DNA from: Halomonas sp. | GTDB lineage: Bacteria; Pseudomonadota; Gammaproteobacteria; Pseudomonadales; Halomonadaceae | DNA length: 64,000 nucleotides | Assembly: GCF_017983445.1 (NCBI RefSeq) | Contig: NZ_JAGOBJ010000010.1 | Coordinates: forward strand, 148,908 to 212,907 | Reading direction: 5' to 3' | Part shown: piece after piece, positions 31,825 to 45,812 of the stretch | How the letters are laid out: each line of letters starts with the position of its first letter | How positions within the stretch are numbered: position 1 is the stretch's first letter | Position numbers and translations under genes: made by a program | The notes under the pieces: model-generated | The model's database searches: none | What the model saw: only the letters and a program-made list of their open reading frames with translations | Told to the model about the DNA's origin: nothing

Positions 31825-32706
31825 TCAACCTCGCGGATGATGTTCGGCATGCAGGTTTTCCAAGCGGGCTTGGGCGACATGCGTATAAATTTGAGTCGTG
31901 GACAAATCGCTGTGGCCTAACAGCAGCTGTACGACCCGTAAATTAGCCCCATGATTCAATAAATGTGTCGCAAAAGCATGACGCAATGTGTGTGGCGACA
32001 GCGGACGGGTAATTCCAGCCGTAATCGAATGGGCTTTTATGCGATGCCAAAAGGTCTGCCGGGTCATGGGTTTATCGCTTCGTCCTGGAAACAGCGCAGG
32101 CTTTGTCGGATCGTTCATAAGCGCTGGTCTGGCCGTTTTCATATAGTGCGCAAGCCAGTCGGCGGCTTCTTCGCCCATAGGCACCAGACGGTCCTTGTCC
32201 CCTTTACCCCGTACGCGTACCACGCCCTGCCGCAGATTCACCGCATCGCTGGTTAACGAGACAAGTTCCGAAACACGCAGCCCGCAGGCATACAGCAGTT
32301 CCAGCATGGTGCGATCACGCACACCTAGCGGGGTTTCAACATCCGGCGCCATCAGCAGCCGCTCAACCTCCGCCTCTTCCAGCGTATTGGGCAACCCGGG
32401 AAGAACGCGTGGTAACTTCACCTCAGCCAGCGGGTCGCTCGCTACATGGCCGTGCAGGCGCGCCCAGCGATAAAAACTTCTGAGGCTCGATAACAGTCGG
32501 GCGTTACTGCGCAGCTGGTAGCCCTGCTCTTGTCGGGCTTCAAACCACACAGGCAGCTGCTGGAGGCCGGGGGATAATATATCGTCGCCTTGCGCCACCA
32601 GATACTTCTGCCACGCAGTTAAGTCGCGCCGGTAAGCGGCTAACGTATGATCGCTGGCACCCTGTTCCAACCAGAGGGCATCCAGAAAGGCATCAATGAC
32701 GCTCAT
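31825..32706 (-). CDS. xerD: Site-specific tyrosine recombinase XerD
   Basis: With XerC resolves chromosome dimers at dif. N-terminal SAM-like core-binding domain (about 1-95, LDALWLEQGASDHTLAAYRRDL), then the catalytic domain with Arg in LLYACGLRVSELVSL, Lys in RGKGDKDRLVPMG, HTLRHAFATHLLNHGA (H-R), GHSDLSTTQIYTHV (H and the nucleophilic Tyr). 293 residues. The presence of dsbC directly after it identifies XerD rather than XerC or an integrase; there is no neighbouring element sign. Confidence 0.95.
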   Translation of the reverse strand: MSVIDAFLDALWLEQGASDHTLAAYRRDLTAWQKYLVAQGDDILSPGLQQLPVWFEARQEQGYQLRSNARLLSSLRSFYRWARLHGHVASDPLAEVKLPRVLPGLPNTLEEAEVERLLMAPDVETPLGVRDRTMLELLYACGLRVSELVSLTSDAVNLRQGVVRVRGKGDKDRLVPMGEEAADWLAHYMKTARPALMNDPTKPALFPGRSDKPMTRQTFWHRIKAHSITAGITRPLSPHTLRHAFATHLLNHGANLRVVQLLLGHSDLSTTQIYTHVAQARLENLHAEHHPRG

Positions 32707-32741
32707 ACATTAACGGCCCTTAAGTGATACGAGTACATAAA

Positions 32742-32773
32742 CAAAACCCCGCCCCGCAAAGCGGTGACGGGGT
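32742..32773 (-). terminator. Terminator after rplS
   Basis: On the minus strand ACCCCGTCACCGC, short loop, GGGGCGGGG then TTTTG: a GC-rich hairpin with a short T-run, about 67 nt past the rplS stop and 36 nt before the xerD start. Confidence 0.85.
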
Positions 32774-32839
32774 CCTGGTATCTGGGCGCAACGGATGTTC
32801 AAGACATACGTCAACAAGGCGCGCCCAAGAAAGTGCCGT

Positions 32840-33196
32840 TTACGACAGCTTTTCTTTGATACGTGCTGACTTACCGCTACGCTCACGCAGGTAGTACAGC
32901 TTGGCTTGACGCACGTCACCACGACGCTTGACTTCAAGAGAGTCAACCAGCGGGCTGTAGGTCTGGAAGGTACGCTCAACGCCAACACCGTGAGAAATTT
33001 TACGTACGGTGAAAGCGGAGTTCAGGCCACGGTTACGCTTAGCGATAACCACACCTTCAAACGCCTGCAGACGCTCGCGGGTGCCTTCCTTTACTTTTAC
33101 CTGAACGACAATGGTGTCGCCCGGTGCAAAAGAAGGCAGCTCTTTGCCCATCTGCTCGTTTTCGATCGCCTGGATCACCTTGTTCTTGCTGCTCAT
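32840..33196 (-). CDS. rplS: 50S ribosomal protein L19
   Basis: 118 residues starting [20 protein letters not shown] and containing [30 protein letters not shown] and the [20 protein letters not shown] tail, the L19 sequence located at the subunit interface. I preferred the ATG at 33196, seven bases after AGGAG, over the ATG at 33202, which is too close to it. Last gene of the ffh-rpsP-rimM-trmD-rplS cluster, set off from trmD by 191 nt containing an inverted repeat. Confidence 0.97.
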
Positions 33197-33220
33197 CTTC
33201 ATGCTCCTAAATAACGGAAT

Positions 33221-33252
33221 GGTTTGCCACGCAGTTGTGGAAGGGGCAAACC
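33221..33252 (-). repeat. 8-bp inverted repeat in the rplS leader
   Basis: GGTTTGCC and GGCAAACC arms separated by 16 nt lie 25 nt upstream of the L19 start within the 191-nt trmD-rplS gap. It may form a leader stem in the mRNA. No promoter is obvious in the gap (33197-33387). Confidence 0.5.
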
Positions 33253-33387
33253 GTGATCCCGGCGCTCGAAACGAGCTTCGCGGGAGTCGTTATGGGTGAC
33301 GCAGGTACGTAGGCTTGCAGTCAATAGATAAACAACGTGCCCTTGCCGTCCTGCACCGCCGCTCTGCACCATGGAGTTGAAAGCAAC

Positions 33388-34203
33388 CTACCTGGCGTAC
33401 AGAGCGTGTTCCTCGATAAACTCATTCAGCAACTTCTGTTGCTCGGCATTAAGCTCACGCCCCTTTAATAAATCGGGACGACGCTGCCATGTGCGGCCTA
33501 AAGACTGCTTTAAGCGCCAGCGCTTGATGGCTGCATGATTACCACTGAGCAGCACATCCGGCACGGTCTTCCCGTCAATGATTTCTGGACGGGTATAGTG
33601 CGGGCAGTCTAACAGACCGTCATTAAACGAGTCTTCGATAGCGGAATCCTGATGCCCCAAAACACCGGGAATCAGCCTTGCCGCTGCGTCAATCAGTACC
33701 ATGGCGGGCAGCTCACCGCCGCTCAACACATAGTCGCCAATCGACCATTCTTCATCAATGTCACTTTCTACCACACGCTCATCAATGCCTTCATAGCGCC
33801 CTGCTACCACCACAAGAGGGCCTGCAGCGGCTAACGCCTGAGCACCTTTTTGATCCAGCTTGCGCCCCTGGGGCGAAAGATAAATCACGGTAGGCACTAA
33901 GCCTGTGGCTTGATGTGCCCGCTCGCGGGCATCGCGGATAGCGCCACGGAGTGTATCGACTTTCATCAACATACCCGGGCCACCGCCATAAGGACGGTCA
34001 TCCACACTGCGATGGCGATCGGTGGCGTAATCCCGCGGGTTCCAGAACTCCAGAGCAATACGCTGTTTCTCAATCGCTCGACCTACTACGCCCTGCTGGG
34101 TAAGTGCATCGAACATTTCAGGAAACAACGACACCACACCGATCCACATCGCGGGCTTATCCAGGTTACTGCCAGACGCTGGTGCTTGCGCATCACAGGC
34201 CAT
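33388..34203 (-). CDS. trmD: tRNA (guanine37-N1)-methyltransferase
   Basis: Adds m1G37 to tRNAs with a 36-G, preventing +1 frameshifts. Trefoil-knot SPOUT fold: [38 protein letters not shown], knot motifs [23 protein letters not shown] and [19 protein letters not shown]. 271 residues from the ATG at 34203; an in-frame TTG at 34215 overlaps the rimM stop (TTGA) and is a real alternative. The first 18 residues are an extension not seen in most TrmD. Confidence 0.96.
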
Positions 34204-34211
34204 GTCACTGC

Positions 34212-34757
34212 TCAAAAGTCAGCATCCCAGTTAACGACCATACGGTCATCTTCCAGGCTGATTTCGACAATCACATCATTAGGCAGAAACGGTATCAACC
34301 GCTCGCGTTTGTCGATCGCGTCTGCATCACCGCGAACCACCATGACATCGTTGGCGCCGGTTTCAAACAGATAGCTTATCCGTCCCAACCGCTCGCCGGC
34401 TTGAGTGAAAACAGCCAGGCCTTCAAGCTCATGCCAGTAATACTCATCGGCGGAAAGCTCAGGCAGTGCATCTTTAGGCAGTAAGATATCCGTCTGCGCC
34501 AGTGTTTCAGCTGCATTGCGGTCATCCACGCCCTTAAGCTGCACAACAAGGCCTTTACCTTGCCGACGTCCCTGAACAATGGCCATTCGCGTAAGGGTCT
34601 CCCCTTTGCGCACCCACCATTCGGGGTAATCCAAAATGCTGTCCATGGGGCTGGTGTATGAATACACCTTGAGCCAGCCTTGCACCCCGTGAGGGCTAGT
34701 CAGCTTGCCTAACACCACATGCGTGTCGTCAGTATGGCTTGTTTCAAAACGCGTCAT
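34212..34757 (-). CDS. rimM: Ribosome maturation factor RimM
   Basis: Assists assembly of the 30S head, binding S19. N-terminal beta-barrel ([22 protein letters not shown]) and C-terminal PRC barrel ([34 protein letters not shown] as two linked segments). 181 residues from the ATG at 34757 with GAGG upstream; a TTG four codons earlier is a weaker choice. Between rpsP and trmD, as in E. coli. Confidence 0.96.
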
Positions 34758-34802
34758 CGACGACCTCAACGTACAGCAGTTCAGATTCTACCGTGAACAG
34801 AC

Positions 34803-35051
34803 TTACGCCTGTTTACGCGCTTCTTTAACCAGCTCAGCAACACGACCAGACAGCTGGGCGCCTTGGCTCTGCCAGTGAGTAACACGCTCTAGATCAACGC
34901 GCAGACGCTCTTCCTGACCACGGGCAACCGGGTTGAAGAAGCCGATACGCTCGATGAAACGGCCGTCACGGGCATTACGCGAGTCGGTAACGGTCAGGTG
35001 GTAAAAGGGACGCTTCTTGGCGCCACCACGTGCCAAACGAATGGTAACCAT
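34803..35051 (-). CDS. rpsP: 30S ribosomal protein S16
   Basis: 82-residue S16 beginning [21 protein letters not shown], with [19 protein letters not shown]. Ribosome site AAGGAT before the ATG. A promoter at 35151-35180 likely starts the rpsP-rimM-trmD-rplS transcript, in addition to any read-through from ffh. Confidence 0.98.
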
Positions 35052-35150
35052 ACGATAACTATCCTTCGGTTGAGGTTACGAGAGTGGAAAATAGCGCAAA
35101 CCGCCACCAGAACACTCATCATACTGTTTTCTTGATACGCCGCTCACTCA

Positions 35151-35180
35151 AAGATAAGTGCCTGCTTTGTATCATTTCAA
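35151..35180 (-). promoter_or_regulatory. Predicted sigma-70 promoter of rpsP operon
   Basis: Minus strand TTGAAA (35180-35175), 18-bp spacer, TATCTT (35156-35151), 100 nt upstream of the rpsP start. The 296-nt ffh-rpsP gap (35052-35347) is otherwise without a supportable gene; a plus-strand reading frame in it has no ribosome site and no family resemblance. Confidence 0.6.
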
Positions 35181-35347
35181 GGCCTTCAAAACCGGATGTG
35201 GCGGCAATGTTTGCACATATTTTGCCAACACCCACGCATGAAGAGGCCGCATTCTACGCAAATGCGCCCGGATTGGAAAGCCTGACAGCCAGAAAACTCA
35301 CAGGCCGTCAACCTTACCAACGTCGCCGCAGCGCCTAAGCTAATATA

Positions 35348-36772
35348 TTAGCGCCAGGGCAGGCCACCGGGGCCGCCCATACCACCACCGCCCATACCGC
35401 CCATACCGCCCGGGCCGCCGGGACCACCGCCGCCCATCATGCCGGACATGCCGCGCATCATCTTCTGCATGCCGCCTTTCTTGCCCGCCTTCTTCATCAT
35501 TTTCTGCATTTGCTTATGTTGCTTGAGCAGACGGTTCAGATCCGGCACCTGCAGACCGGCACCTGCAGCAATCCTGCGCTTGCGCGAACCGTTGATCAGA
35601 TCCGGCGTGCGGCGCTCTTTGGGGGTCATGGAGTTGATTAGCGCTTCAAGCTTACCCAGCTCCTTTTCAGGACCGGGGCCTTGAGCCATTTCGGCCATTT
35701 GCCCCATTCCAGGTAGTTTGCCCAGAAGGCCGCCCATACCGCCCATCTTTTTAAGCTGCTGTAGCTGGTCGCGGAAGTCTTCCAGATCAAAGCCATCGCC
35801 TTTTTTGACCTTGCTGGCAAGCTTGGCAGCTTTGTCTTTATCGACCGTGCGCTCGGCTTCCTCGATCAGCGACAGCATGTCGCCCATACCGAGGATACGA
35901 GACGCAACACGATCCGGATGGAAAGGCTCCAGGGCGTCGACTTTCTCGCCCACACCCATAAACTTGATAGGTTTGCCGGTAATATGGCGCACGGACAGCG
36001 CCGCACCGCCCCGGGCATCACCGTCGGCCTTGGTTAATATAACCCCGGTCAGCGGCAATGCATCGTGGAAGGCCTTGGCGGTGTTGACGGCATCCTGGCC
36101 GGTCATCGCATCAACGACAAACAGCGTTTCTTGCGGCGAGATCGCCTTATGCAGCGCCTGGATCTCCGCCATCATGGCTTCATCGATCGCCAAACGACCG
36201 GCGGTATCCACCAGCACCACATCGTGGAACTGGATTTTGGCGTGCTTGATCGCCGCTTCGGCAATATCAACAGGCTTTTGGTCAGAGCGCGACGGGAAGA
36301 AGTCGACCTCGACCTCTTTGGCCAGCGTCTCCAACTGATCAATAGCCGCCGGACGATAAACGTCAGCCGAGACCACGAGGACCTTTTTCTTTTCGCGCTC
36401 GCGTAGATAGCGGGCCAGCTTGGCAACGGAAGTGGTTTTACCCGCTCCCTGCAAACCGGCCATCAGCACGACCGCCGGAGAGCCTTTGAGGGTCAGGCCC
36501 TCATTGGCCTCGCCCATAATGGCTTCCAGCTCCTGCTGAACGATTTTGACGAACTGCTGGCCCGGTGACAGGCTTTTGGACACTTCCTGGCCAACTGCCC
36601 GCTCGCGCACACGCTCGATAAAGGCTTTGACGACCGGCAGCGCCACGTCGGCTTCGAGCAGCGCTTTACGTACTTCGCGCAGGGTATCTTTAATATTGTC
36701 GTCGGTCAGGCGTGCCTGACCTTTGATCGACTTCAACGTCTGGGAAAGACGCTCACTGAGATTCTGGAACAT
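35348..36772 (-). CDS. ffh: Signal recognition particle protein Ffh
   Basis: GTPase that with 4.5S RNA binds signal sequences and hands them to FtsY. N domain (about 1-95), G domain with GLQGAGKTTSVAKLA, VDTAGRLAID and TKADGDARGG, and the methionine-rich M domain from about residue 325, ending in a long Gly/Met tail (GGGGPGGPGGMGGMGGGG). 474 residues. The 4.5S RNA gene is not in the window. Divergent from ypjD, as in E. coli. Confidence 0.98.
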   Translation of the reverse strand: MFQNLSERLSQTLKSIKGQARLTDDNIKDTLREVRKALLEADVALPVVKAFIERVRERAVGQEVSKSLSPGQQFVKIVQQELEAIMGEANEGLTLKGSPAVVLMAGLQGAGKTTSVAKLARYLREREKKKVLVVSADVYRPAAIDQLETLAKEVEVDFFPSRSDQKPVDIAEAAIKHAKIQFHDVVLVDTAGRLAIDEAMMAEIQALHKAISPQETLFVVDAMTGQDAVNTAKAFHDALPLTGVILTKADGDARGGAALSVRHITGKPIKFMGVGEKVDALEPFHPDRVASRILGMGDMLSLIEEAERTVDKDKAAKLASKVKKGDGFDLEDFRDQLQQLKKMGGMGGLLGKLPGMGQMAEMAQGPGPEKELGKLEALINSMTPKERRTPDLINGSRKRRIAAGAGLQVPDLNRLLKQHKQMQKMMKKAGKKGGMQKMMRGMSGMMGGGGPGGPGGMGGMGGGGMGGPGGLPWR

Positions 36773-36833
36773 GGGGCCTCTCTGCCTCCGTCGCTGTCTC
36801 CGGGCGCCTACGGCCCTGGACTGATGTGCATGG

Positions 36834-36862
36834 ATTATACGCGCTCAGGCGTTGAGTCTCCA
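36834..36862 (-). promoter_or_regulatory. Predicted promoter of ffh
   Basis: A consensus TATAAT (minus strand, 36839-36834) with TGGAGA 17 bp upstream (36862-36857) lies 62 nt before the ffh start. The 209-nt divergent gap (36773-36981) also must carry the ypjD promoter; TATAGT at about 36911 is a candidate without a clear -35. Confidence 0.55.
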
Positions 36863-36981
36863 TGGCTGTGCGCTTGCTAACGATGGCTGTGCGATACTGT
36901 TTCGATTGGTTATAGTAGTCAGTACACTTTAGTTCGACTGTTTTTCACTGCAACGCGCGAAACGCGCGCACGGATAGCATC

Positions 36982-37779
36982 ATGCAGGCGCTGCCTCTCG
37001 CCACGATCGCTTTTGTATTTTATGTCGCCGCTGCCATCTGGCAGGGCATGACTCTTTTTCGCCGCGTACCGCCCCGCCAAGGTATGGTGCGCCTTCTTGG
37101 TGCCTTGGGGCTACTGCTGCATATTCCGGTGGTCGTGCAGTTAGTCAACCAGGCGCCCGGCTTACTGCCGGGGTTCACCACCAGCGCAACGCTGTTTATG
37201 GCCGTGGCGGTTAACGTGCTGCTGATAGCCAGCCTTTTCAAACCGGTCCTTAACGTCAGCATTGTTTTATTTCCGCTCGCCGGTGTCGCGCTGATCACCG
37301 CTACCTGGCTACCCAGCCACGGCAGCCATACGGGGCTCACACCGGGCATCCTGCTGCACGCCATTAGTTCGGCACTGGCCTTTGCCATGCTGGCCATTGC
37401 GGCAGTGCAGGCAATACTTGTCGGTCTGCAGAATCAGGCGCTGCGCCATCATCATATTCGCGGTATCGTTCAGTCGCTTCCGCCATTGACCACGATGGAG
37501 CGCGTACTGTTCGAGCTGGTGTGGGCAGGCATTTTGCTGCTTACTCTCTCGATTATCAGCGGCTTTATTTTCCTGGATAATATTTTTGCCCAACACTTAT
37601 TACATAAAACCGTATTATCGTTGGGGGCATGGATAATCTTTACCACACTACTTATTGGCCGCTATCGTTTTGGCTGGCGAGGTATGCGTGCGGTACGCTG
37701 GACGCTGGGCGGCTGCACGCTATTGATACTTGCCTACTTTGGCAGCAAGTTTGTACTTGAAATACTGCTTAATCGCTAA
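36982..37779 (+). CDS. ypjD: Inner membrane protein YpjD (CcsA/CytC-assembly type)
   Basis: 265 residues with about eight membrane segments, for example TIAFVFYVAAAIWQGMTLF, MVRLLGALGLLLHIPVVV and ILLHAISSALAFAMLAIAAV; the last motif together with a C-terminal WIIFTTLLIGRYRFGWRG follows the cytochrome c assembly (CcsA) fold. The CcsA tryptophan-rich heme loop is not seen, so a heme role is doubtful. The family member YpjD sits between ffh and corB in E. coli, exactly as here, and is thought to work with CorB-type magnesium transport. Confidence 0.9.
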   Translation: MQALPLATIAFVFYVAAAIWQGMTLFRRVPPRQGMVRLLGALGLLLHIPVVVQLVNQAPGLLPGFTTSATLFMAVAVNVLLIASLFKPVLNVSIVLFPLAGVALITATWLPSHGSHTGLTPGILLHAISSALAFAMLAIAAVQAILVGLQNQALRHHHIRGIVQSLPPLTTMERVLFELVWAGILLLTLSIISGFIFLDNIFAQHLLHKTVLSLGAWIIFTTLLIGRYRFGWRGMRAVRWTLGGCTLLILAYFGSKFVLEILLNR

Positions 37780-37804
37780 GCAGACCCAGGCGGCCATGGT
37801 TGTC

Positions 37805-37833
37805 TTGACACACCATCCCCTACCTTCTACAAA
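37805..37833 (+). promoter_or_regulatory. Predicted promoter of corB
   Basis: Consensus TTGACA (37805-37810), 17-bp spacer and TACAAA (37828-37833), 34 nt upstream of the TTG start of corB; allows corB expression independent of ypjD. Confidence 0.7.
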
Positions 37834-37866
37834 TCGAGCCTGATACGTCATAAAGGAACTTTCGAC

Positions 37867-39147
37867 TTGAGCGACGACTTCCCTTTGGGGTTACTGTTCA
37901 GCCTACTAGGCTTACTGATAGTACTGTCCGCCTTCTTCTCCAGCTCTGAAACCGGCATGATGTCGATCAACCGCTACCGCCTGAGCCATCAGGCCAACAG
38001 CGGGGACCGGCGTGCCAAACGGGTCATGCGTCTGCTTACCCGGCCCGACCGCCTTATCGGCGTTATTCTGATTGGCAACAACTTCGTCAATAACCTAGCG
38101 GCGTCCATTGCCACTATCATTGCCATCCATTTTTTTGGCGATGTATCAGGCCCGGCGATTTCTACCGCGATCTTAACCATTACTATTTTAATTTTTTCCG
38201 AAGTCACGCCCAAGACCTACGCGGCAATCAAACCCGAGCGCATTGCCTACCCAACCTCGATGGCTCTGGAGCCGCTCTTAAAGCTGCTTTATCCCCTGGT
38301 GTGGCTGGTCAATATTATCTCCAACGGTCTACTCCGGATACTCGGTGTGAAGAGCGTGGAAAATGGCGGGGATAACTTGACCCGCGATGAGCTGCGTACC
38401 GTGGTGCATGAGGCGGGCACGCTGATTCCTTATCGCCACCGCGCCATGCTGCTGTCGATTCTGGATCTTGAGAACGTGACGGTAAACGACATCATGGTGC
38501 CGCGCCACGAGGTGCTGGGAATCGATCTGGACGACTCGCTGGAAGATATTCTGACTCAGATTCGTACCAGCCAGCATACTCGCCTGCCGGTCTATAAAGG
38601 CGATATAAACAACATCATTGGCATGCTGCATTTACGCAATGCCGCGCGCTTTTTATCGCGCAGTGAAGTCACCAAAGCGGCGATTGTGCAAGAAGCCCGC
38701 GAACCCTACTTTATTCCCGAATCCACTCCGCTACATACCCAGCTGCTTAATTTCCAAAAGCAGAAACGCCGCATTGGCGTGGTAGTCGACGAGTATGGCG
38801 ATGTCGAAGGGCTAGTCACTCTTGAAGATATTCTGGAAGAGATTGTAGGAGAGTTCACAACGGACGTATCGGAAGACGAAGAAATTCATCAGCAAGATGA
38901 TGGTAGCCATGTGATTGAAGGCACGGCCAATATTCGTGAAATCAACAAGATGCTTGGCTGGCACTTGCCAACCGATGGACCCAAGACGCTGAACGGTTTG
39001 ATTCTGGAACACCTGGAGGCATTTCCAGAAGGCCCTGCCAGTCTACAGATTGGCAATACCCGCATGGAAATTCTGGAGATTCGCGACAACCTGATTACGT
39101 CTGCCCGCTGCTGGCAAAAAATTCGCCTGCCTCGGCGCGGCGTATAG
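37867..39147 (+). CDS. corB: CorB-like CNNM/HlyC-CorC family transporter with CBS domains
   Basis: 426 residues, start at TTG 37867 with AAAGGA upstream. DUF21/CNNM membrane domain with three or four spans (LLFSLLGLLIVLSAFFSSSE, then GVILIGNNFVNNLAASIATI and an IFSEVTPKTYAAIKPERIA signature), two CBS domains (about 195-325, VTVNDIMVPRHEVLGIDLD and RIGVVVDEYGDVEGLVTLED) and the CorC_HlyC C-terminal domain. Family proteins take part in Mg2+/Co2+ efflux. Adjacent to ypjD as in E. coli yfjD. Confidence 0.92.
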   Translation: MSDDFPLGLLFSLLGLLIVLSAFFSSSETGMMSINRYRLSHQANSGDRRAKRVMRLLTRPDRLIGVILIGNNFVNNLAASIATIIAIHFFGDVSGPAISTAILTITILIFSEVTPKTYAAIKPERIAYPTSMALEPLLKLLYPLVWLVNIISNGLLRILGVKSVENGGDNLTRDELRTVVHEAGTLIPYRHRAMLLSILDLENVTVNDIMVPRHEVLGIDLDDSLEDILTQIRTSQHTRLPVYKGDINNIIGMLHLRNAARFLSRSEVTKAAIVQEAREPYFIPESTPLHTQLLNFQKQKRRIGVVVDEYGDVEGLVTLEDILEEIVGEFTTDVSEDEEIHQQDDGSHVIEGTANIREINKMLGWHLPTDGPKTLNGLILEHLEAFPEGPASLQIGNTRMEILEIRDNLITSARCWQKIRLPRRGV

Positions 39148-39158
39148 CCATGAAAAGA

Positions 39159-39192
39159 GGTCGTTCTAAAAACGATAGCGTTTGAAACGACC
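39159..39192. terminator. Inverted repeat between convergent corB and plsC-like gene
   Basis: GGTCGTT and AACGACC arms with further AAAACG/CGTTT pairing inside, filling the 47-nt gap between the two stop codons. No T-run, but the position and symmetry suit a shared bidirectional terminator. Confidence 0.5.
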
Positions 39193-39194
39193 GG

Positions 39195-39857
39195 CTAGCG
39201 TTGGGCAATACCTTTATCGGCGGCCGCTTTAAGCGCCCTTACTCGCGCTTCCAGATAGCTACGTAGCGCTACCTCATTGACTTCCTGGGCATTAATCGGC
39301 GGCCCGAAATGCAGGCTGACCGGCGCCCGAAAGCGGCTTGGCCACTTCTTCAGCGCTTTACCATTGTAGTGAGATGTCCACGACCCCCAGAGCCCGGCAA
39401 GCCCTGCTGGAATGACCGGCACGTTATCGCGCGCCAGAATGGTTTCCAGACCGCGTCGAAAGGTATGAATGTCACCGTCGGGAGTTAATCGCCCTTCTGG
39501 AAACACCATGACCACTTCGCCACGATGCAGCGCCTGGCTGATTTCATCCAGCGTACGCCGCAAGGCGCCAGGGCTACGCCGTTCAGATTCAATGGGAATG
39601 GCGCCAACCAGCTGAAACCACCATTTGAGCCAAGGGGAATCGAAAATCGGCTGGTCCATGACGAACCGCAACGGCCTTGGGCTGCCGCCGCCCAAAACCA
39701 AAGCGTCCATAAAGCTTACGTGATTACACACGACGAGCGCGCCGCCCTGCTTGGGCAGGTGATAGCGCCCATGAACTTGCAAACGATAGCACAGCCGCAT
39801 CGCTATATAGATCAGGCTACGCAACATCTGGCGAACACCGTTGACCCACCATCTCAC
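39195..39857 (-). CDS. 1-acyl-sn-glycerol-3-phosphate acyltransferase (PlsC-like)
   Basis: Acylates lysophosphatidate-type lipids at the inner membrane. 220 residues with the HX4D motif in NHVSFMDALVLGG, the second motif around ESERRSPGALRR, FPEGRLTPDG and a late VPVIPAGLAGLWGSW. N-terminal amphipathic/hydrophobic helix. Starts at a GTG that overlaps the TetR stop by 4 nt (GTGA), so it is under control of the same transcript as the regulator. Several PlsC-type genes per genome are common; this is not necessarily the essential one. Confidence 0.88.
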   Translation of the reverse strand: MRWWVNGVRQMLRSLIYIAMRLCYRLQVHGRYHLPKQGGALVVCNHVSFMDALVLGGGSPRPLRFVMDQPIFDSPWLKWWFQLVGAIPIESERRSPGALRRTLDEISQALHRGEVVMVFPEGRLTPDGDIHTFRRGLETILARDNVPVIPAGLAGLWGSWTSHYNGKALKKWPSRFRAPVSLHFGPPINAQEVNEVALRSYLEARVRALKAAADKGIAQR

Positions 39858-40468
39858 GTTGCAGGCCCCCGATGCCGGAGCCCTGCCAGTACGGTGCTTA
39901 CCAACTGATCAAGCAATTCATCCACTTTAAGCTGCTGCCCTTGCCAATAGCCTAGCCGTTCATTCAAACCTAGCTGCACAAGCCCGTGTACACTACCCCA
40001 CAGCGTGCGTCCTAAACGACGCGCTTCTAAATCATCAAGCGTGGGCTGATACTTTTTAAGCGCAGACTCAACCTGGGTAAACAGTGCTTCAATCAAATCG
40101 CTTTGGCGTTGATCAAGCTCACCTTCCTGAGCAAGAGGGTAATCAAACAGCAGTTGCCAGCGATAACAGTCCTGCTCGGCAAAATGCCAGTACGCATGGG
40201 CAAGCGAACGCAGCCAAGGCTCTGGGGCGTCTTCGGCTAATGATGTAATGGCATGCTGCAGGCCTGCCAACGTTTCGACATTGACGTTCTGCAGTAAGTT
40301 GTTAAAGCTGCCATACAGTTTGAGCAGCGTGCTGGGTGCGCAGCCAACCTCTCTAGCCAGGGCACGCAGTGATAAACCATGGACTGGCTTTGCAGCCAGC
40401 CACTCATCACAAACGTTCATGACCTGCGCATGGAGGGCATCGGGCGCATGCTGTCTAGGACGGGCCAT
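39854..40468 (-). CDS. TetR-family regulator
   Basis: 204 residues. HTH near residues 30-52 (LSLRALAREVGCAPSTLLKLYGSFNNLL), then an all-helical ligand domain (LGRTLWGSVHGLVQLGLNER matches TetR_C domains with a WG-H-L motif). Coupled to the acyltransferase, suggesting control of a lipid-related step. Its divergent promoter region toward the SRAP gene holds two inverted repeats that could be its operator. Confidence 0.85.
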   Translation of the reverse strand: MARPRQHAPDALHAQVMNVCDEWLAAKPVHGLSLRALAREVGCAPSTLLKLYGSFNNLLQNVNVETLAGLQHAITSLAEDAPEPWLRSLAHAYWHFAEQDCYRWQLLFDYPLAQEGELDQRQSDLIEALFTQVESALKKYQPTLDDLEARRLGRTLWGSVHGLVQLGLNERLGYWQGQQLKVDELLDQLVSTVLAGLRHRGPAT

Positions 40469-40507
40469 GGCGATCTCTTCAGGTCAACGGCAAACAAACA
40501 AGAATGC

Positions 40508-40593
40508 CTCACCGCGCTTTAGCGTGAGCAAGGGGTAATATAGGATACCTTACATCGAACACTGTTTTCGACACTAAAACGTTACATTTAGTG
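40508..40593. promoter_or_regulatory. Two inverted repeats in the tetR/SRAP intergenic region
   Basis: CTCACCGCGCTTTAGCGTGAG (40508-40528, near-palindrome) and CACTAAA-N8-TTTAGTG (40572-40593). Both lie in the 189-bp divergent gap between the TetR start and the SRAP-gene start. They are plausible TetR operators but no binding data support this. Confidence 0.45.
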
Positions 40594-40657
40594 CATTCTT
40601 ATGCGTCTTTCGCTCTCCCATGACATGATTGCGCCGATTTTGCTTAAGGAGAAAGGC

Positions 40658-41344
40658 ATGACGGGACGCCTACACGTGCAAAACTTATCGCTCACGCGCC
40701 TTTTGCCTTCGCTTAAGGCGCCTTTTACGCTTGTAGAATCGCCCAATCTAGCGCCGCGCCAGCCGGTTTCGGCTATCCGTTTAGCGCAAGGTGAGTATCA
40801 GCTTGAGCCGCTTTTCTGGGGGCTTACACCACCGTGGCTGACCGTGTTGGACCATGCTCCCCACTGCGCCAGGGCCGAGACCCTTGGTTCAAAGGCCATG
40901 TTTCATGAGGCTTTTCAGGCCAGGCGCTGCGTTATTCCGGTAAGCGGTTTTTATATCTGGAAGACGCTGCCGCGAAGCAAGCAGCCCTACCTGGTCACTC
41001 ACGTAACTCGCGCGCCCTTGTTGCTGGGGGCTTTATGGTGTCGTTATCATACAACGCTTACTGCGTTTACCGACTCAACTGCACTGATTAGCGTGCCTGC
41101 CAATGCGTGTCTTGCGCCATTGAGTGACCGCCTGCCGGTGGTTATCCCGCCTCATGCTCTAGACACATGGCTTGATCCAGATAGCCCTCTCGACACCGTT
41201 AAAGAATTATTAATGCCCGCGCCTTTGGAACTGTTGGGCGCTTTTCCGGTATCAAAGCATGTTAATAATCCTGCCTATCAATCTACGGTCTGCGCCCATC
41301 CAATAGGGCCAATGCTGCAGTGGGCCACCGCACAGGAGCCATAA
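40658..41344 (+). CDS. Degenerate SRAP (YedK/HMCES-fold) protein
   Basis: 228 residues, start at ATG 40658 with AAGGAG eight bases upstream. The SRAP fold is recognisable from NLAPRQPVSAI, FWGLTPPW, ARAETLGSKAMF, RRCVIPVSGFYIW, SKQPYLVT and SDRLPVVI. In active family members Met1 is removed and Cys2 forms a thiazolidine cross-link with abasic DNA, helped by Asn75, Glu105 and His160 (E. coli YedK numbering). Here these positions appear to be Thr2, Cys70 (HCARAET), Ile100 (FYIW) and Ser156 (LSDR): all replaced. It is likely not a cross-linking enzyme. The stop TAA overlaps the next ATG by one base (TAATG). Confidence 0.85.
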   Translation: MTGRLHVQNLSLTRLLPSLKAPFTLVESPNLAPRQPVSAIRLAQGEYQLEPLFWGLTPPWLTVLDHAPHCARAETLGSKAMFHEAFQARRCVIPVSGFYIWKTLPRSKQPYLVTHVTRAPLLLGALWCRYHTTLTAFTDSTALISVPANACLAPLSDRLPVVIPPHALDTWLDPDSPLDTVKELLMPAPLELLGAFPVSKHVNNPAYQSTVCAHPIGPMLQWATAQEP

Positions 41345-44196
41345 TGTTACAGCCGACGAGTATAACCCCCGAACGCGTGCCCTATCCGCGTATTAGCCTG
41401 ATTGTGATGCTAGGCGCTTTATGGTTTTCCCCTCACCTGCTGGCGGCCAGTGACAACCCGGTCGATGAAGTGATAACACCGACCACCAGCCCTTTTGATA
41501 GCCGCGACTATCGTGTACTGACTCTCGAGAATGGCTTAAACGTTCTGCTGGTAAGCGACCCGGAAGCTGATAAGGCGGCGGCCTCGATGAATGTGCGGGT
41601 GGGCAGCGCTCAGGACCCGGACGACCTGCTGGGGCTTGCCCACTTTCTTGAACACATGCTGTTCTTGGGCACTGAGCCCTACCCTGCCTCGGATGCCTAT
41701 CAGCGCTTTATTTCAGATCACGCGGGCTCACACAACGCCTTTACCGCCCAGCAGGATACCAACTACTTTTTTGATATTGAGCCATCAGCCCTGCCGGAGG
41801 CGCTTGACCGGTTTAGCGAGTTCTTCTTATCGCCACTGTTTAATGCCGACCATCTGACGAGCGAGCGCAATATCGTCCATTCGGAATACATGGCGCGCAT
41901 TCGTGATGAGTCACGCCGTGAAAACGATGTGCTCAATCAGTTATTGAATCCTGACAACGCCACCACCAGCTTTGCCGTGGGCAGCCGTGAAACCCTTGCC
42001 AACCCGCCTGAAGGCGAAGCGACGCTACGCGAGCGGGTGATGGACTTTTACCATCAGCACTACGATGCCAACGTCATGAATTTAGCCGTGGTTGCCCCAC
42101 AGCCGCTGGATACCCTTGAGAATTGGGTGGCAGAACGCTTTGCCGACATTCCCGATAACGATCTCAGCGTTCCTACGATTGATGCTCCACTAATAGATGC
42201 CTCCACGCTGCCGCGCTACATCGAGCGCCAATCGCTGCAGGATCGCCGGCAGCTACGTTTTTACTTTCCGATCCCCGACCCTACCGATGAGTACCGCACC
42301 AAACCCACACAGGTGATTTCCCACCTGCTGGGTGATGAGGGTGACGGCAGTCTTTTAGCCGTGCTGCGTGATGCAGGCTTGGCCGACGGCCTGTCGGCAG
42401 GCGTTGGGCGGGGCGATGGCGAGGATGCTTTATTTACCGTATCCATCAGCTTAACGCCTGCAGGTGCTGAGCGGCTGGATGATATTCAGGCCACGCTGTT
42501 TGCCGCCATTGAGAAGATCCGTACCGAAGGGCTCGCCGACTGGCGCTACGCAGAGCAACGCGACCTTAGCGAGCAGGCCTTTCGTTTTCAGCAACACGGT
42601 GCGCCGCAACAGGAAGCGACTCGCCTTTCAATGAGCCTGTCCCGCTATCCAGTGGAAGATGTACAGTACGCCGCCTACCGGATGGATGCGCCGGACACTG
42701 AGCGCCAAGCGGTGTATCTAGACGCGTTAACGCCCGACAACATGCTGCGCTTTTATTCCGCGCCGGACATTGAAAGCGACACCGTGTCGCCCTGGTTCAA
42801 TACCCAGTGGCGGGAGCAGCAGCCTTCCCAGACAGGCCAGGTACTGAGTGAATTGACACTCCCTGAGCCGAATCCGTTTATTGCCAGCGACCTGACGCTT
42901 TTGGAAGGTCAGGATGAGCGCCCCAGCATACTCATCGATACGCCCTCGTTTCACGCTTGGCATATGCAGGATGCCCGGTTCAATACGCCAAGCGTCGAGT
43001 GGCGCCTGAGCCTGCAATACCCGGACGCCAGCTACTCGCCTGAAGAGGTAGTGCTGACTCAGCTGCTGGCCGGTTGGTTAAACGACAGCCTCAATGAGTC
43101 ACTGTACCCGGCGTGGCTGGCGGGCCAATCGTTTAGCGCCTACCCGCACGCGCGTGGAATGACGCTTTCGTTTTCAGGCTGGCGTGATGGCCAGACGCCG
43201 CTCATTGAGCAGGCTATTGATCAGCTTAAGACAGCTGACATCAGCGAGAGCACCTTTGAGCGCGTGCGCTATCAGCTAGAGCGGGAATGGCGCAATGCAC
43301 CGCAGTCATCACTTTCAGGCCAGGCCAGCCGTACATTGGGTGAGGCGCTGCTAGCCCCTCAATGGTCGACTCACGAGCTTCTCGCCGCCAGCCAGCACTT
43401 AGAGCGCAGCCACCTGGAAAACTTCCGCAAGCGCTTTTTGGGCGGGCTTTATGCTGACGCCATGGCGGTCGGCAACCTGGATGCAGATCTGGCCCGCGAG
43501 CAGGCCAACATAATGCGTAACAAGCTACGCCCGCGTTTAACCCGTGACGATATTCCTAAGCTAACGCCACAGGCTGTCAGCGAGACGCCCAGCGTGCTTC
43601 GCCCCCACAGCACGCGTGAAGAATCGTTGGTGTTGCGCTATTTACAGGCCCGTAATCAAACCGCCAAGGAGCAGGCAGTAACCAGCGTTATCGCACAATG
43701 GCTGGAAACGCCCTTTTACCAGAAGCTGCGTACCGAGGAGCAGCTAGGCTATATCGTCAATGCCGGTTATTCGCCGCTGCTTGAAGCGCCCGGTATTGCG
43801 TTGCTCGTTCAATCGCCCGATGTGGACAGCGAAACCGTGGCGGAACATATGGACACGTTTCTGGATGACGCCAGCCAACAGCTTGAGCAGCTAGACGATG
43901 AGACACTTGCACCTTATCGCCAAGCGGTTCATGACCGGCTCAACCAGCGCGACACCAGTCTGAGCGGCATGGCCAACCGATACTGGCAGGCAACCGCCCT
44001 GGATGATATTCGCTTTGATCGCCGCGAGGAGCTGGCCAATCTAGCGCTTGAGGTAAGCCCAGCCGATATACAGGCCGTATGGCCTGCCCTGCTTGCCCAT
44101 CAGCTGGATGTACGCTTCAACCCAGGCGATGCACCCAGTGACGTGACACCCTACCGTGAAGCGTTAACGCCGTTTAACGAACAGCACCAGCCGTAG
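41344..44196 (+). CDS. M16-family zinc protease (pitrilysin-like, exported)
   Basis: 950 residues. An N-terminal hydrophobic stretch (LIVMLGALWFSPHLLAAS, about 19-36) looks like a signal peptide, so the enzyme is probably periplasmic. The inverted zinc motif HFLEH lies at residues 100-104 (HFLEHMLFLGTEPYP) with a downstream Glu in ERNIVHSEYM; a second half-domain is catalytically silent, as in pitrilysin (ptrA). ELARILY-type C-terminal features: LRTEEQLGYIVNAGY. Translation is coupled to the SRAP gene by TAATG. Confidence 0.9.
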   Translation: MLQPTSITPERVPYPRISLIVMLGALWFSPHLLAASDNPVDEVITPTTSPFDSRDYRVLTLENGLNVLLVSDPEADKAAASMNVRVGSAQDPDDLLGLAHFLEHMLFLGTEPYPASDAYQRFISDHAGSHNAFTAQQDTNYFFDIEPSALPEALDRFSEFFLSPLFNADHLTSERNIVHSEYMARIRDESRRENDVLNQLLNPDNATTSFAVGSRETLANPPEGEATLRERVMDFYHQHYDANVMNLAVVAPQPLDTLENWVAERFADIPDNDLSVPTIDAPLIDASTLPRYIERQSLQDRRQLRFYFPIPDPTDEYRTKPTQVISHLLGDEGDGSLLAVLRDAGLADGLSAGVGRGDGEDALFTVSISLTPAGAERLDDIQATLFAAIEKIRTEGLADWRYAEQRDLSEQAFRFQQHGAPQQEATRLSMSLSRYPVEDVQYAAYRMDAPDTERQAVYLDALTPDNMLRFYSAPDIESDTVSPWFNTQWREQQPSQTGQVLSELTLPEPNPFIASDLTLLEGQDERPSILIDTPSFHAWHMQDARFNTPSVEWRLSLQYPDASYSPEEVVLTQLLAGWLNDSLNESLYPAWLAGQSFSAYPHARGMTLSFSGWRDGQTPLIEQAIDQLKTADISESTFERVRYQLEREWRNAPQSSLSGQASRTLGEALLAPQWSTHELLAASQHLERSHLENFRKRFLGGLYADAMAVGNLDADLAREQANIMRNKLRPRLTRDDIPKLTPQAVSETPSVLRPHSTREESLVLRYLQARNQTAKEQAVTSVIAQWLETPFYQKLRTEEQLGYIVNAGYSPLLEAPGIALLVQSPDVDSETVAEHMDTFLDDASQQLEQLDDETLAPYRQAVHDRLNQRDTSLSGMANRYWQATALDDIRFDRREELANLALEVSPADIQAVWPALLAHQLDVRFNPGDAPSDVTPYREALTPFNEQHQP

Positions 44197-44210: not shown

Positions 44211-45704
44211 TCAGGCATCAAAGGCCTGAGCGGGCATCATCGCCTCGACGAACATTACCAGCTCCTCCAGCACCTGCCGCTCACGATCGCTGAGCGTTTG
44301 CTGGTTATAGCGCTCGATTTCGCGGGCAAACGCTTTTAGCGTGAATCCTGACATTGCCGGGTCGTTGATACGCGTCCAGCGAAACGCTTCCCACTGCTCG
44401 CGCTCCTCACCTTCCAACGTCTCGGGGTAGCTACGCGCACGATAGCGAAACAGCATTTCTTCCAGACGCGGATCCTGAAAGGCAAACCGCTGCCCAACTA
44501 AATCCCAGGGATCCATTTCGCGCACCCGCTCCATCTGCTGGCGGTCAGCGGCGGAAAAGAAGCTGCCTGAATAAAGCATCAAGTCAGGGTCTTGAACCGG
44601 CTCATCAAAGCCTGCTTTAAATACATCGGCGACTTTCTGCGTCACGCCTTGAGCGCTGCGCAGCGTTTTCCAATGTTGACGGCAGGTAACAATATCCAGA
44701 CCCAGACGCTCAACAATCGCGCCATAAGCCCCTTTTTGTGGGCCATCAATATCTTTAAGCACGCTGGCCGGAAAGATAACCGGGCAACGATTGATATGGA
44801 TGACTTTCAAAGGAATACGCGTCTCGCCTTCCGACAGATCCTGCTGGCTGACAAAAACGCGCTCACGGATCTCTTCAGCGCTGAGCGTTAGAAGATCACC
44901 AGGGTCAACGCTTAAATCGTAAACGATCATCCCATTGGGGTTGGTGGGATGTTCAGCCAGCGGCATGACCAGGGCACTACACCCACGGCTGGCCGGGTAG
45001 CGGCGTGAGATATGCAGAAGCGGCTTGGCATTTGGCAGGTCTAGCTGCGTGGCAACCGCGCGCTTGCCACGCAGACCAAGCAGGTAATCAAACAGTTTGG
45101 GATTACGCTCCTTAAGGAGTCGCGCCAGGGCAATGGTGGCCCGCACGTCGGCTACCGCGTCGTGTGCGCCTTCGTGGTCAATGCCATTGGCTTTGGTCAA
45201 GTGCTCAAGCTTAAAGCTCGGGGCGCCGTCTTCGCGCAGGGGCCACTCGATGCCGTCAGGGCGCAGTGCGTAAAACGCGCGTACGACATCGATCAGGTCC
45301 CAGCGGGAATTGCCGTTTTGCCACTCGCGAGCGTAAGGATCGATCAGGTTACGATAGAACAGATGGCGGGAGACTTCGTCATCAAAGCGCAGGCTGTTAT
45401 AACCCGCTACACAGGTGCCCGGCTCGCTCATATGGCGCTGCACTTCGCTGGCGAACTGCGCCTCAGGCAGGCCGTGACGCTGGGCTTTTTGCGGGGTAAT
45501 GCCGGTAATCAGGCAGGCAACCGGATGCGGCAGATAATCGTCTGCCGGTTTACAGTAAAGCTCTACCGGCTCACCGATCTCATTTAAGTCCGCGTCGGTA
45601 CGCAGCGCAGCAAATTGGGCAGGCCGATCTCGGCGTGGATCGGCCCCGAACGTTTCATAGTCATGCCACAAGAAACTGGCAGGGGCGGCATTGGATGGCG
45701 CCAT
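44211..45704 (-). CDS. sbcB: Exodeoxyribonuclease I
   Basis: 3'-5' exonuclease for single-stranded DNA with roles in recombination and mismatch repair. DEDD exonuclease motifs: FLWHDYETFGADP (DxE), NSLRFDDEVSRHLFYRN, and HDAVADVRATIALARLL (DEDDh third motif). The C-terminal SH3-like and helical domains follow, with FPASVLKDIDG. 497 residues from the ATG at 45704, preceded by GGAG; an in-frame TTG two codons earlier is less likely. Convergent with the M16 gene, 14 nt apart. Confidence 0.95.
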   Translation of the reverse strand: MAPSNAAPASFLWHDYETFGADPRRDRPAQFAALRTDADLNEIGEPVELYCKPADDYLPHPVACLITGITPQKAQRHGLPEAQFASEVQRHMSEPGTCVAGYNSLRFDDEVSRHLFYRNLIDPYAREWQNGNSRWDLIDVVRAFYALRPDGIEWPLREDGAPSFKLEHLTKANGIDHEGAHDAVADVRATIALARLLKERNPKLFDYLLGLRGKRAVATQLDLPNAKPLLHISRRYPASRGCSALVMPLAEHPTNPNGMIVYDLSVDPGDLLTLSAEEIRERVFVSQQDLSEGETRIPLKVIHINRCPVIFPASVLKDIDGPQKGAYGAIVERLGLDIVTCRQHWKTLRSAQGVTQKVADVFKAGFDEPVQDPDLMLYSGSFFSAADRQQMERVREMDPWDLVGQRFAFQDPRLEEMLFRYRARSYPETLEGEEREQWEAFRWTRINDPAMSGFTLKAFAREIERYNQQTLSDRERQVLEELVMFVEAMMPAQAFDA

Positions 45705-45812
45705 GAACAAGCACTCCGCAGGGCAGCAAAAACACCAAGCCTAGCACACCCTTTGCCTATCTCGCCGCTAACGGCACTATCACGACCCTGTCATACCCAG
45801 CCCTGCCTGCTT

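Follow-up and report, generated by a model that had tools for sequence, protein, structure and literature searches.

SRAP-fold proteins lacking the abasic-site cross-linking residues recur beside an exported M16 protease in the bacterial family of Halomonas

SRAP proteins (PF02586) of the YedK/HMCES type are abasic-site (AP-site) cross-linking enzymes, and YedK provides the reference chemistry. In the accessible text of PMC9436759, Schiff-base formation is driven by Glu105 and closure of the thiazolidine by Cys2, with His160 assisting ring opening. The same text reports trappable Schiff bases for YedK C2A and C2S and cleavage of AP-DNA by C2A, with lyase activity 25-fold slower than C2A in C2A/E105Q and 2.5-fold slower in C2A/H160Q, and a modest effect of N75A alone on an internal AP site. 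The second-residue Cys of SRAPs is termed absolutely conserved in the accessible part of PMC3765255. No published account of an inactive SRAP or of a Halomonas SRAP was found in the literature searched, which is not proof of absence from print.

The window (the whole stretch of 64,000 nucleotides analysed) carries a SRAP gene in the setting given in Table 1. Its product of 228 aa starts with MTGR, and an AAGGAG-type ribosome site lies directly upstream; inspection by eye showed a comparable site ahead of this start in most orthologues of the main clade, and less clearly in basal genera. A start upstream at 40601 was rejected because the ribosome site and the MxGR start were conserved (by eye). 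The earlier note had described the gene as coupled through TAATG to an M16 protease and divergent from a TetR gene, and both points held: the TAA stop and the M16 ATG share one base at 41344, and the TetR gene lies on the opposite strand. Two canonical SRAPs and one shortened SRAP were also present in the window genome (L003, L107 and L108 of G000).

Table 1. Features around the SRAP gene, in window positions
Feature	Position	Strand	Evidence
SRAP-fold protein, T2/C70/I100/S156 replacing YedK Cys2/Asn75/Glu105/His160	40658..41344	+	ORF, Pfam, alignment, fold model
M16 (pitrilysin-like) protease, HFLEH motif, N-terminal hydrophobic segment (export signal by eye)	41344..44196	+	ORF, Pfam
TetR-type regulator (TetR_C_33), divergent from the SRAP gene	39854..40468	-	ORF, Pfam
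TCGAACACTGTTTTCGA, conserved near-palindrome between TetR and SRAP genes, probable TetR operator	40555..40571	.	motif comparison
Acyltransferase (PF01553) whose end runs into the TetR gene; often found in synteny	39195..39857	-	ORF, Pfam

By descent and fold, the window protein is a member of the SRAP superfamily: it matched the Pfam SRAP profile at 7.5e-41 and, among PDB sequences, YedK at 7e-13. An AlphaFold model built from 52 clade sequences reached a mean pLDDT of 91.3, and its best PDB fold matches in Foldseek were YedK-DNA complexes and the SRAP domain of HMCES (TM by query length 0.78-0.84 against YedK and HMCES chains). The NCBIfam search returned a single model far under its cut-off, and the PHROGs match was a single family with no assigned function. 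The structure prediction proposed earlier thus agreed with YedK for the whole fold, the four active-site side chains being placed by sequence alignment.

An alignment of 106 sequences with E. coli YedK gave T, C, I and S for the window protein in the four active-site columns. A HMMER local alignment, which stops short of the N-terminus, set C70, I100 and S156 opposite N75, E105 and H160, and T2 follows the start Met. The family-wide alignment displayed no canonical Cys, Asn, Glu or His at other positions; it confirmed the replacement of all four residues and supported the earlier description of a preserved fold without the known chemistry. Because all four side chains are missing, stable cross-linking by the window protein is very unlikely, and any lyase activity is expected to be at most weak.

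The same replacements recurred through the bacterial family, which by sequence makes the pattern more than chance. The window protein had a match at 1e-5 in 198/201 sampled genomes of the family (the four sites being typed in part of those genomes) and in 50/50 of its own genus; the three genomes with no match also had no Pfam SRAP match of any kind. Named relatives among the best 80 of 217 matches belonged to Halomonas, Vreelandella, Modicisalibacter and Litchfieldella, with Vreelandella zhanjiangensis closest (96%). Distinct orthologues typed amounted to 85, 84 from the family and one from outside, after exclusion of duplicates (L010, L012, L015, L017, L024, L154, L155, L183, L192), of one partial sequence (L153) and of L127 and L128, which gave no tblastn match though Pfam SRAP matched there; residue typing skipped L153, L150 and L148, where the start motif was missing.

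Cys2, Asn75, Glu105 and His160 were kept in 0, 2, 5 and 0% of these 85 clade sequences. The second residue was Thr in 46, Ala in 31, Ser in 6 and Pro in 2, with no Cys, and position 160 was Thr in 51, Ser in 27, Ala in 4 and three single residues, with no His. Position 105 was mostly hydrophobic (V48, I17, A7, L7; Glu in 4, Asp and Gln in one each), and position 75 was Cys in 70 and Asn in 2. Among the best 80 of 217 matches, which overlap with the 85, Cys2, Glu105 and His160 were absent from all 80 named loci and position 75 was Cys in 79. By alignment, nearly all members of the clade have lost the nucleophile (Cys2), the clamp (Asn75), the acid-base residue (Glu105) and the acid (His160), and carry a recurring set T/A, C, V/I and T/S instead. 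The fully stripped site of the earlier note therefore stands for the window protein and not clade-wide, since Glu105 was retained by four basal members (whose second residue is Thr or Pro) and Asn75 by two members of the genus. Judged by the defining residues, the window protein falls outside the YedK/HMCES class of abasic-site cross-linking enzymes.

Two further chemistries could be read from these residues. Thr, Ala, Ser and Pro in second place are all compatible with Met removal. The freed N-terminal amine might form a Schiff base and make the protein an AP lyase instead of a cross-linker, as the YedK C2A and C2S mutants and the Glu105 of the four basal members would allow; the window protein lacks both Glu105 and His160, and given the slow C2A/E105Q mutant we regard such residual activity as improbable. 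Less probable still is a relocated nucleophile, whereby the new Cys at position 75 (C70 of the window protein), which lies inside the old pocket, would perform a different thiol reaction: 15/85 clade sequences have Ile, Asn, Ser, Thr, Val, Leu, Ala or Met there instead. Two SRAPs of genus g26 (L077, L078) had Pro as second residue and Glu105 kept, and one located on a short draft-genome contig (L229, ORF from 1039, G358) had Pro with both Glu105 and His160 kept. These three recall the N-terminal Pro nucleophile of Fpg and are candidate natural AP lyases.

Outside the family, a single member read A, T, D and S at the four sites and directly preceded an M16 gene on the same strand. Matches at 1e-10 were obtained in 152/390 genomes of the order (part of them typed, mostly one per genus) and at 1e-38 in 54/369 genomes of the class; the class-wide typing covered 17 loci from beyond the order, all of them Cys2/Asn75/Glu105/His160.

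A general role as regulator of an active paralogue was ruled out, as 24/37 genus genomes had one SRAP match only. This form was found in 18/18 of the fully typed single-SRAP genomes, which therefore have no active SRAP partner to regulate; the other six were a draft genome with the gene split over two frames (G016, possibly an assembly error) and five untyped under those handles (G001, G010, G014, G022, G027).

A tree was built by maximum likelihood from 117 sequences: 43 drawn from the 85 of the clade, 52 canonical SRAPs and 22 others. All 43 clade rows fell on one side of a single branch (support 100/98). The clade joined a group of 20 SRAPs with partly eroded sites from families f21 and f8, which belong to the same order (support 99/89). 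In this sister group, position 160 had no His in 20/20 (the alignment being gapped there for f21), position 105 was Glu in 15/20, Asp in 3 and Gln in 2, and Cys2 was kept in 13/20, with Ser or Thr as residue 2 in part of the rest. These distributions suggest an order of loss in which His160 went first, then Cys2, then Glu105. Loss of Cys2 would have left amine-only, possibly AP-lyase, intermediates, for which the basal clade members with Glu105 beside an N-terminal Thr or Pro and the Ser/Thr part of the sister group are candidates. The complete scenario, a stepwise dismantling of a suicidal DNA cross-linker within one order whose end product is a fixed DNA reader that binds reversibly and is encoded, with no evident LexA site, beside an exported protease in a TetR-linked operon, is one we put forward as speculative and, taken whole, unlikely.

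Where 4 kb flanks of the partly eroded sister SRAPs were searched, no M16 match was found. At 12/15 distinct f21 loci (e.g., L203), a gene for an M48 lipoprotein-like protease lay on the same strand, 129-3139 nt away, and within 300 nt of the SRAP gene at five f21 loci. This would be a second case of a SRAP near an exported metalloprotease, and is possibly a coincidence.

Loss in the clade was selective. Among 52 canonical SRAPs, 24 columns were at least 85% conserved; the clade lost the four catalytic ones, while 18 of the other 20 stayed at 93% or more and two changed conservatively, the start Met, written M by construction, being counted among both the 24 and the 18. In this comparison the canonical set was picked by C2, E105 and H160 and the clade set by absence of Cys2, a filter that dropped no orthologue row of the four-site alignment. 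Residues R4, N37, P40, W61, P65, W67, W106, R162, P164 and W175 were kept in 100% of clade sequences, and a new Arg appeared beside P40 in 76/85. R77 and R162 of YedK, which we take to be pocket-edge arginines with a role in DNA binding, were kept in 84/85 and 85/85. Two arginines of this kind are named in another SRAP in the accessible part of PMC3765255. Nearly every other strongly conserved SRAP residue, R77 and R162 included, is thus kept in the alignment beside the replaced four.

Mean net charge was +4.2 in 74 main-clade and +3.3 in 11 basal sequences compared with -3.3 in 14 canonical paralogues from this bacterial family, these means and the column counts ignoring kinship among related sequences. 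The window protein itself, at only +2, was not extreme, its charge per length being above just 35/49 window ORFs.

Judging by codon substitutions, the SRAP gene is under purifying selection within the genus: pairwise dN/dS was 0.05-0.23 across the 28 listed pairs of 13 sequences, 22 of these pairs having dS above 1, saturated or nearly so, and 0.07-0.23 in the six pairs with dS below 1. These ratios and the matches in 198/201 genomes argue against a decaying relic retained only through its position beside M16. Such decay could account for the three genomes with no SRAP match, one of them still with TetR and M16 genes face to face, and for the split gene of G016, and is to us barely credible.

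The reading we prefer, and hold to be plausible without calling it probable, is that of a selected, non-cross-linking SRAP whose cleft holds single-stranded DNA reversibly and non-covalently. An old cross-linking enzyme would in this way have become a binder that does not react. Its cleft would still bind single-stranded DNA, probably at an abasic site or a frayed 3' end, and with no thiazolidine bond to form, the DNA would be shielded or marked reversibly and with no covalent adduct. The kept basic and aromatic positions, the new Arg beside Pro40 and the positive shift in charge relative to canonical paralogues favour retained nucleic-acid binding, although the retained residues may serve the fold rather than DNA binding.

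The SRAP gene was followed by M16 on one strand at 60/60 clade loci with longer flanks, and a divergent TetR gene lay upstream at 50/60; the ten loci with no TetR gene were from basal genera, several on contigs ending nearby. The context that the earlier note had called unusual is thus the normal setting of the clade. Among the best 80 of 217 matches, TetR and M16 matches were obtained at 80/80 named loci, with M16 on the same strand within 400 nt at 78/80 and a partial M16 match further on at the other two. The gene at window positions 44211-45710, which converges on M16 and which we take to be exonuclease I (sbcB), had a match at 54/60 clade loci. The M16 start finder failed on 1/85 (L064/L129, although tblastn detects M16 there) and picked an internal Met in a few cases; a TAATG or TGATG overlap was found at the SRAP stop in 44/85, an HxxEH motif in the M16 protein in 84/85 and, by eye, a hydrophobic or lipobox N-terminus in most.

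A 17-base near-palindrome had a best match of 12-17 of 17 bases in the 74 extractable intergenic regions, a range obtained with no shuffled control. Within the genus it was present at this locus in 13/13 genomes with at most one mismatch (11 with none), and among other families of the order a one-mismatch match was found in one of six genomes. A second, one-mismatch copy of the putative TetR site lay upstream of OmpW genes in 2/13 genus genomes (L328:3001, L329:3001). This copy may be due to chance, since a reversed control pattern matched about as often (one match each in 4/19 genomes, 3/13 of the genus genomes). Allowing at most one mismatch, no LexA box of the type CTGT-N8-ACAG was found from 32002 to 41658, and LexA control of the SRAP gene through this type of box was ruled out. 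The SRAP gene is probably co-expressed with the exported M16 protease and controlled by the neighbouring TetR regulator, not by LexA. Against the reversible DNA binder, the absence of a nearby LexA-type site and the constant presence of an exported protease do not point to DNA repair.

This setting would also suit a repurposed fold, in which the cleft binds another ligand or a protein partner and acts with M16 or TetR-linked envelope genes rather than on DNA. The constant SRAP-M16 pair, found also at the locus outside the family, the overlapping stop and start codons and the OmpW copy of the operator-like element point that way. Against it, the DNA-facing residues are kept, the OmpW copy is at chance level, and by eye the M16 protein carries an export signal that the SRAP lacks. 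In addition, one genome (L191, G073) keeps TetR and M16 face to face, 412 nt apart and with no SRAP gene, so M16 can do without SRAP. We regard a repurposed fold as rather unlikely, yet worth keeping in view beside the reversible DNA binder.

Compared with YedK and HMCES, the window clade has the same fold, the same Pfam profile and the N-terminal MxGR, and shares R4, N37, P40, W61, R77, W106, R162 and P164; it differs by the replacement of all four cross-linking residues in the window protein and by the M16/TetR neighbourhood, constant around the clade SRAP. The partly eroded SRAPs, its sisters in the tree, likewise lack His160, and differ from it in a position 105 that is mostly Glu and in a frequent Cys2. 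A clade with no Cys2 and with most of the other three residues gone, the SRAP consensus being kept, amounts to a natural test of what the fold can do beyond cross-linking, and the intermediates of its erosion resemble YedK mutants studied in the laboratory. The side-chain losses are comparable to those of C2A, C2A/E105Q and C2A/H160Q as described in the accessible text of PMC9436759; in the clade, however, they are natural, fixed in a bacterial family and accompanied by a mostly hydrophobic position 105.
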